From Ignavibacteriales bacterium (lineage in GTDB: Bacteria > Bacteroidota > Ignavibacteria > Ignavibacteriales > Melioribacteraceae), in the NCBI GenBank assembly GCA_003599395.1, contig QZJX01000102.1, positions 1 through 64,000 of the forward strand: a stretch of DNA of 64,000 nt, in the 5' to 3' direction. The notes under the pieces are model-generated. The model searched no databases and was not told where the DNA came from. It saw nothing but the letters and a program-made list of their open reading frames with translations. Position numbers and translations under genes: made by a program. Positions 15,538 to 16,436 of the stretch are shown piece by piece. Position 1 is the stretch's first letter, and every line of letters begins with the position of its first letter.

Positions 15538-15846
15538 AATCTCCGGTTAAGAATTTTTGTTTCGATAGTTCAATATAGTTAAATAAGAGAATTAATTGAA
15601 TTAGTCAAATTAATAACTCTTAATCGTGATCTTACTTTTAATTAGAAACCGATAAATCGGTTATGGGTGTTTGGTTGGTTGTCAAAAACCCACGGATAAA
15701 TCCGTGGGTTAATGATATAATTAACACATACTTACCATTAACCAATGGCTTTAGCCATTGGTGGTAATAAATCCAACCACCAAAACTCATCTAACGGTTT
15801 CAACCGTTTTAGTTTTTACTTATATTAAAATAAAAAGGGTGAACTT
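15538..15846. other. Gene-free stretch: GH13 upstream region plus left hairpin array
   Basis: 15538-15640 is AT-rich and should hold the promoter of the minus-strand GH13 gene, but I cannot place it. From 15647 to 15808 lies the four-hairpin array described separately, followed by the leader of the transposase gene. Confidence 0.6.
15647..15808 (+). repeat. Left four-hairpin REP-like array
   Basis: Four inverted repeats: H1 15647-15662 (AACCGAT, loop AA, ATCGGTT); H2 15687-15710 (11-bp perfect stem, core CCCACGGAT); H3 15741-15762 (10-bp perfect stem, core CCAATGGCT, loop TT), with flanking ttacc/ggtaa that could extend it; H4 15793-15808 (AACGGTT, loop TC, AACCGTT). Confidence 0.9.
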
Positions 15847-16286
15847 ATGTCTGTCCGCTCATACACAAAAGTCTGGTTGCATCTAATTTGGGGAACACAG
15901 AAAAGGGAAAAATCTCTCGTCGGTAAAGAATTAAGAAAAAATCTATCAAATTTCTTTCATAACTATTCGAAAGAAAAAGAAATCTATATGAAGGTAAACT
16001 ATGTTAACTCCGACCACGTTCACGCATTAATTGATCTGCCTACCGATAAAAAACAATTGCAGATACGTTGCATCTCCTAAAAGGTGCTTCATCAAATTGG
16101 ATAAATAAGCAAATCAACTTCAAATTTGCTTGGGCTAAGGGATATGCGGCTTTCTCGGTCTCGGAATCCAATCTTAAGAAAGTGGTTGATTACATCTTGA
16201 ATCAAGAAGAACATCACAGAGTTAAGAGTTTTGCAGAAGAGTATGAGGAGTTTCTGCAGAAACACAATGTTGTGGTAAACCGATGA
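15847..16286 (+). pseudogene. REP-associated tyrosine transposase (RAYT), split by a frameshift
   Basis: Two overlapping frames together make one Y1 (HUH) transposase. The first (15847-16080) runs from MSVRSYTKVWLHLIWGT to the catalytic HUH motif in SDHVHALIDLPT and then stops. The second reading resumes around 16050 and contains HLLKGASSNWINKQ, AKGYAAFSVSESNL and the nucleophilic Tyr in VVDYILNQEEHH, ending at 16286. The break falls at a run of six A (16048-16053); stepping back one base there restores a continuous protein of family length. Ribosomal or transcriptional slippage on the A run could still make active enzyme, but a decayed copy is simpler. The stop codon lies inside the first hairpin of the right array. 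Such transposases cut and move REP-like hairpins in single-stranded DNA. Confidence 0.85.
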
Positions 16287-16436
16287 ATCGGTTTTGGGAA
16301 TATCGAGGTAATTGCTCCTGTCCCACGAATTAATTCGTGGGTTAATAAAAAATCTTCAGTCCACCTTCCCATTAACCAATGGCTTTAGCCATTGGGGCAA
16401 GATAACCCTAAATCCGCCATAACGGTTTTAATCGTT
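16278..16436 (+). repeat. Right four-hairpin REP-like array
   Basis: Four inverted repeats in the same order as on the left: H1 16278-16293 (AACCGAT, GA, ATCGGTT); H2 16322-16341 (perfect 20-bp palindrome, core CCCACGAATT); H3 16376-16395 (identical to the left H3 core); H4 16421-16436 (AACGGTT/AATCGTT, one G-U pair). Spacers between hairpins differ from the left side, so stems are conserved more than linkers. Confidence 0.9.

Follow-up and report, generated by a model that had tools for sequence, protein, structure and literature searches.

A Y1/HUH transposase gene of an Ignavibacteriales bacterium lies between two copies of a four-hairpin module, and modules built from the same hairpin type occur without the gene in related genomes. 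We regard this arrangement as probably a system of the REPtron/BIME type in which an IS200-like Y1 transposase (subclass 1.2) is the acting enzyme. Since the module is dispersed without the gene in related genomes, it looks like an overlooked partnership of enzyme and repeat, as with the REP of E. coli, but based on another branch of the enzyme family. The window analyzed is a stretch of 64,000 nucleotides of contig QZJX01000102.1.

The transposase gene and its two hairpin modules

Four hairpins, H1 to H4, precede the transposase gene (15646–15808), and H1 to H4 follow it again in the same order and orientation (16277–16436; Table 1), as a first-pass annotation made from the sequence had described. 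This annotation had further reported conserved stems with diverged linkers and a stop codon within the right H1. Both hold: the left and right H3, foot included, differ at 1/26 positions while the H3–H4 linkers are 45% identical, and a TGA is located in the right H1. The pairing is perfect or near-perfect as claimed, with the correction that right H4 requires one G.T pair. Both modules were folded as single-stranded DNA (z values in Table 1). Sequences resembling H2 and H3 are confined to the two modules within the 64 kb window (chance expectation about 0), and no Rfam family was found in the window.

Table 1 Coordinates of the transposase gene, hairpins and modules in the window (contig QZJX01000102.1).
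Feature	Position	Strand	Description
Y1/HUH transposase gene, IS200-like subclass 1.2	15847..16286	+	Frameshifted; intact in same-species genome G113
Left H1	15646..15663	-	Reverse-oriented hairpin AAACCGATAAATCGGTTA, short stem, TTTA apex on minus strand; matches H1 of orphan modules
Left H2	15687..15710	-	Reverse-oriented, 11-bp stem; 3'-side foot reads GTTAAT (to 15713); covariance-model match 36.5 bits
Left H3	15737..15762 with foot (hairpin 15741–15762)	+	Forward, foot ATTAAC, TTTA apex; 34.5 bits
Left H4	15793..15808	+	Forward, short hairpin, TTCA apex; TAAC-like foot just before
Left module H1–H4	15646..15808	.	R R F F; fold z -7.85
Right H1	16277..16294	-	Reverse-oriented; stop codon 16284–16286 inside
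Right H2	16322..16346 with foot (hairpin 16322–16341)	-	Foot GTTAAT; one compensated pair change relative to left H2
Right H3	16371..16395 with foot (hairpin 16376–16395)	+	Foot ATTAAC; 32.9 bits
Right H4	16421..16436	+	Forward; one G.T pair
Right module H1–H4	16277..16436	.	R R F F; fold z -3.39
Inner unit F F - gene - R R, feet outward	15737..16346	+	Predicted from the orientation rule in relatives

In the window, the gene is split over two overlapping frames (15847–16080 and 16068–16286) encoding Pfam Y1_Tnp, and near 16045 a short run of A has changed in length, breaking the frame; the change is either biological or an assembly error. In a complete genome of the same species (G113), the corresponding place next to mutS harbors the gene unbroken. 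Its protein scores 59.8 bits with the NCBIfam IS200/IS605 model, above the cut-off of 55, and 31.9 bits with the RAYT model NF047646, below the cut-off of 80. Its nearest solved proteins are the TnpA enzymes of ISDra2 and IS608; likewise, a Foldseek search with an AlphaFold2 model (pLDDT 89.5) gave ISDra2 TnpA as the best match (E 2.9e-9), with the RAYT 4er8 appearing first at rank 30. Residues H57, H59, Y115, Q119, H122 and H123 are invariant among 35 relatives and constitute the Y---Q--HH signature, represented in the enzyme by the motif YILNQEEHH. By motif, curated cut-offs and fold, the enzyme is an IS200-like TnpA of TnpA_Y1 subclass 1.2. A canonical class 2 RAYT (TnpA_REP) was rejected, as the Y---NP signature is missing and the model score lies below its cut-off, and the designation "RAYT transposase" of the first-pass annotation is replaced accordingly. 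One window-type gene is present in G113, a low copy number as in subclass 1.2. No second near-identical copy was found in the own or the same-species genome, and the paralogues are strongly diverged in most of the relatives listed.

Besides that, the window's genome and its relatives contain a second, distinct Y1 enzyme with the same signature (G000:C53:9343-9687, L001, L007; also L231, L234, L235). It is flanked by hairpins with a 7-bp stem and a 3-nt loop (CAACCGCAACGCGGTTG and similar), spaced about 50 nt apart and bearing a GTTC-like foot, and forms with them a parallel hairpin system.

Orientation of the hairpins and their association with the enzyme

Around the genes of relatives, hairpins carry the apex TTTA or TTCA, or the reverse complements TAAA/TGAA, with few exceptions. 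When oriented by this apex, they display a foot T-A/T-A/G-C on the 5' side, with 1.09 bits at the T and 1.20 bits at the C, compared to 0.12–0.27 bits across the first four bases outside the stem on the mirrored 3' side. The orientation rule was set on a first sample and then tried on ten untouched loci. The foot was present in 90/109 hairpins of the larger first sample (20/109 mirrored) and on the 5' side of 34/37 hairpins in the held-out loci (2/37 mirrored), where 40 hairpins were detected against 0 in shuffles. There are 125 such hairpins around 51 related genes, whereas shuffled flanks gave 0.15. An assignment to RAYT by foot was also rejected: the class 2 foot GT[AG]G does not apply, the foot of the held-out hairpins being T[AT][AG]C.

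The position of forward (F) and reverse (R) hairpins relative to the gene is part of this rule. The nearest downstream hairpin is reverse in 8/9 held-out loci and the nearest upstream one forward in 6/10 (2 reverse, 2 undefined); over both samples, the nearest upstream hairpin is forward in 32 and reverse in 7 cases, and the nearest downstream hairpin reverse in 31 and forward in 6. Among neighboring pairs, R-to-F occurs 28 times, F-to-R 10 times and the same orientation 21 times. Written in these letters, the arrangement in the window becomes R R F F - gene - R R F F, and relatives show shorter or longer versions of the scheme, for example RFRFRF-gene-RFRF at L125 as well as L121, L010 and L128. 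All four stems belong to a single hairpin type that occurs in two orientations, with a TTYA apex and, on the 5' side, the foot T[AT][AG]C; they do not represent four unrelated kinds, as had been assumed. Nor are four distinct stems specially needed: related loci contain two, three, four or more hairpins of this type, and many orphan modules have three.

The hairpins also track the enzyme. They are located beside 49/67 proteins, in one broad part of the enzyme tree, which takes 3 changes on the tree versus 15.9 with shuffled labels. Foot types within a locus agree in 195/203 pairs, and the distribution of foot types over the tree takes 9 changes versus 18.3 when shuffled (minimum 14). In 21/34 loci, one or more pairs of left and right arms are identical; swapping partners between loci lowers this to 2%. 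As a separate observation, three loci of the window's species (L162, L163, L169) contain orphan hairpins with a TTGC foot (CCCCGACTTTTAAGTCGGGG, CCGTCGGTTGAAACCGACGG); these fit another enzyme lineage, of which none was found in the genome of this species.

Modules without the gene

Near mutS, where the window has module, gene and module, the sister species G029 carries a single solo H1–H4 and lacks the gene; no window-type gene was found anywhere in this genome (99% complete). A second H1–H4 orphan of G029 is located away from this site (L114). In addition, nine orphans in G113, G029 and G321 consist of H1, a double-foot palindrome and H4, the two inner hairpins being merged into one palindrome, and orphans overall keep the order H1-(H2,H3)-H4. 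The window-type gene was not found in G321, where the contig ends inside the module. Most orphans were located via the centre alone. Within the nine three-hairpin orphans, 97.4% of the pair cells are standard, and two-sided changes occur at 5/26 pairs, in the centre and also once in H1 and once in H4, the latter two outside the search pattern. The covariation of the hairpins used to build the covariance model was left out of the evidence, because these had been chosen for perfect pairing. In eight of the nine orphans, conservation stops with the outer arms of H1 and H4: information is about 1.7 bits within the module and about 0.2 bits beyond it.

Orphans differ in presence between strains and between species. 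Two G113 orphans are absent at the orthologous places of the window's genome (G000), one of them in G029 too; one G029 orphan is absent in G113 and G000, and another orphan is common to G113 and G029. The orthologous unoccupied places in other strains carry unrelated sequence, so that occupied and unoccupied sites do not define a target site, and no clean empty site was found among the small number of same-genus genomes (MAGs and drafts). Genome-wide, the covariance model matched at least 10–22 times per genome in the genus, some of these matches being weak and probably due to chance; several relatives have at least 10–82 matches per genome, the highest count of at least 82 coming from one relative. 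These counts are lower bounds, obtained with patterns and the covariance model scoring 150 candidates per genome. The orphans in the window's genus are few, about 5–10 per genome and not hundreds.

The first-pass annotation had proposed the multi-stem module as a unit, and the gene-free copies with retained order and orientation, both the G029 solo module and the orphans elsewhere, support this proposal. Modules occur both with and without the gene, in relatives standing in tandem with it, and across the orphans paired bases have changed together in H1, in the centre and in H4. Neither hairpins occurring independently in random order nor a single stem type associated with the transposase, the two outcomes it had named as contrary, was seen in the genus. 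Its further idea that module, gene and module together form the mobile unit finds no support here: no such unit was seen moving, and the module itself looks like the repeating unit.

Several individual loci deserve mention. One G113 orphan (L110:663-787; G113:C1 about 2111862-2111986) lies in frame within the 5' end of an ORF resembling a putative outer-membrane efflux protein, whose G000 and G029 orthologues are devoid of the module and have a different N-terminus. At L216 (G321:C13:7700-9700), another Y1 gene, accompanied by hairpins of its own (CCGTCGGTTTCAACCGACGG, GGGCTTTAGCCC), occupies the place where G029 (C19) has an orphan module, a common insertion hot spot downstream of one gene. 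L115 and L117 (G029 C10, C19) have 30–35 bp of flanking sequence in common on either side of the module (CAAGTTGACC..., inverted), which other orphans do not. In G211 (L238-L251), this hairpin type is found within longer repeats that are nearly identical and have other inverted ends (AGAGGCTGTGTGAA..., AACCCGAATTATGCA...); therefore, another enzyme may have moved those.

Proposed mechanism and relation to known systems

In the most probable scenario, the hairpins would be the oriented single-strand recognition sites cognate to the enzyme, each consisting of a T[AT][AG]C foot and a roughly 9-bp stem topped by a TTYA apex. The enzyme would most likely recognize all three elements in single-stranded DNA and cut next to the foot, as TnpA_REP enzymes do. 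What is dispersed would be the module, accompanied by the gene or alone, with its inner two hairpins placed foot to foot (R R F F here, R F at other loci); its spread or turnover would probably proceed by TnpA cutting and rejoining single-stranded DNA close to the feet. The gene would reside in the gap between two neighboring modules, which accounts for the forward hairpins before it and the reverse hairpins after it, and recombination between direct module copies could delete the gene and leave a solo module. The G029 solo module suits such recombination, since it mixes left-like and right-like segments: H1–H2 resemble the left module (88%), the spacer the right (79%), the H3–H4 linker the left (90%) and the downstream flank the right (92%). 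Architecture, orientation rule, agreement of foot and enzyme, orphan and solo modules and differences in presence are observations, whereas binding and cutting of the hairpins by the enzyme, the cut position, movement of modules by the enzyme, excision and the exact ends of the mobile unit are inferred.

One alternative is site-specific homing, in which a circle of the gene plus one module entered a pre-existing solo module and thereby doubled it. This would be compatible with the REPtron-like reading, and both the solo module that G029 has at this site and genes occupying one gap of an R F array, as at L125, are in its favor. Nevertheless, a simple insertion predicts one switch between left-like and right-like sequence, whereas the solo mosaic has three, and patchy recombination between two modules with loss of the gene fits equally well or better; we therefore consider homing rather unlikely. 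It is more improbable still that the locus represents a small IS200/IS605-type insertion sequence transposing as a unit, F F-gene-R R (about 15737–16346) with double hairpins at each end, and that the outer hairpins are leftovers of neighboring copies. The enzyme exceeds the NCBIfam IS200/IS605 cut-off and is closest in fold to ISDra2/IS608 TnpA, the gene is flanked by forward and then reverse hairpins, and G019, G180 and G211 contain short repeats arranged F F R R, as an internal deletion would leave them. However, a second near-identical gene is lacking in the own and the same-species genome, the paralogues of most relatives listed being strongly diverged, and known IS200/IS605 ends are not inverted repeats (PMC2817692), while those observed here are inverted. 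The genus orphans run R..F, opposite to the F..R of an internally deleted element, and their interpretation as internal-deletion MITEs is ruled out by this hairpin order.

The F F R R repeats themselves (L252-L257; G019, G180, G211) are about 140 bp long with outward feet (ATTGCC...GGCAAT) and have the order expected of an internally deleted element, the window's genus having R..F instead. By far the least probable reading is that of ordinary transcription terminators or mRNA stabilisers unconnected to the activity of the enzyme. Although the hairpins are intergenic and fold well, it was rejected because of their strict orientation marks, foot and apex. The stems are also not followed by a T-tract, the foot agrees with the enzyme tree, left and right arms match, and orphans have a fixed order and sharp ends.

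The sole survey we found that defines subclass 1.2 gave no substrate or repeat for it; the present result supplies a likely substrate together with an orientation code made of foot plus apex. It suggests that partnership of the REP type reaches into the IS200-like enzyme class or originated there, and that a TTNA apex is common to subclass 1.2 hairpins and a biochemically tested RAYT. More tentatively, with slightly less than an even chance in our estimation, subclass 1.2 Y1 enzymes may represent an independent REP-mobilising system, in which an IS200-like enzyme keeps and spreads multi-hairpin modules, its gene is housed between two module copies, and copies within a locus are kept alike by the enzyme.

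For TnpA_Y1 subclass 1.2, Quentin et al. (2018) reported no REPs and, as a rule, a lack of typical terminal structures (PMC6006769), and the papers we found in openly accessible literature contained no description of this subclass with REP-like modules. The enzyme corresponds to the subclass in its Y---Q--HH signature, short core, length of about 145 aa, low copy number, diverged paralogues and Bacteroidetes-related hosts. In contrast to the survey, hairpins accompany nearly all genes of one large part of the subclass. With IS200/IS605 elements such as IS608 and ISDra2, the locus shares enzyme sequence and fold, including HUH, the single catalytic Tyr and the family model match of a class 1 TnpA, as well as subterminal hairpins with a guide sequence 5' of the foot. 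It differs in its inverted, multiple and perfect stems and its orphan modules. Several near-identical copies of a whole element are not present (one gene in G113, none in G029), and instead of asymmetric, non-inverted ends, forward hairpins lie upstream and reverse ones downstream. The double-foot REPs of subclass 2.4 (PMC6006769) resemble the orphans in being palindromes footed on both sides and in occurring in frame within genes, but they belong to another enzyme class and foot, and the double foot here is the centre of a three-hairpin orphan.

The closest parallel is with the REPtrons of E. coli, Stenotrophomonas and Marinomonas, in which a Y1 gene also lies between inverted palindromes with a 5' tetranucleotide foot (PMC2817692, PMC8266576). 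RAYT genes invariably lie between two inverted REPs (PMC2817692), and TnpA_Mb of the Marinomonas REPtron Mb requires the loop T-T-N-A, whose outer T and A act as part of the stem (PMC8266576), matching the TTYA apex described here. Further common traits are related palindromes dispersed in the genome, co-variation of palindrome and enzyme, and arrays of alternating orientation in which the gene is embedded. As in RAYT systems, the gene is flanked by inverted palindromes that are also dispersed in the genome, and as in BIMEs and REPINs, alternating or inverted palindromes form short repeated units. The differences concern the enzyme, which is class 1 (Y---Q--HH) rather than class 2 (Y---NP), the foot, T[AT][AG]C rather than GT[AG]G, and the modules, which comprise three to four hairpins, R(R F)F, at low copy number in the genus. 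The system works like a REPtron with BIME-like arrays, yet it is a RAYT by neither signature nor foot, and both its copy number and its end symmetry set it apart from a typical IS200/IS605 element.
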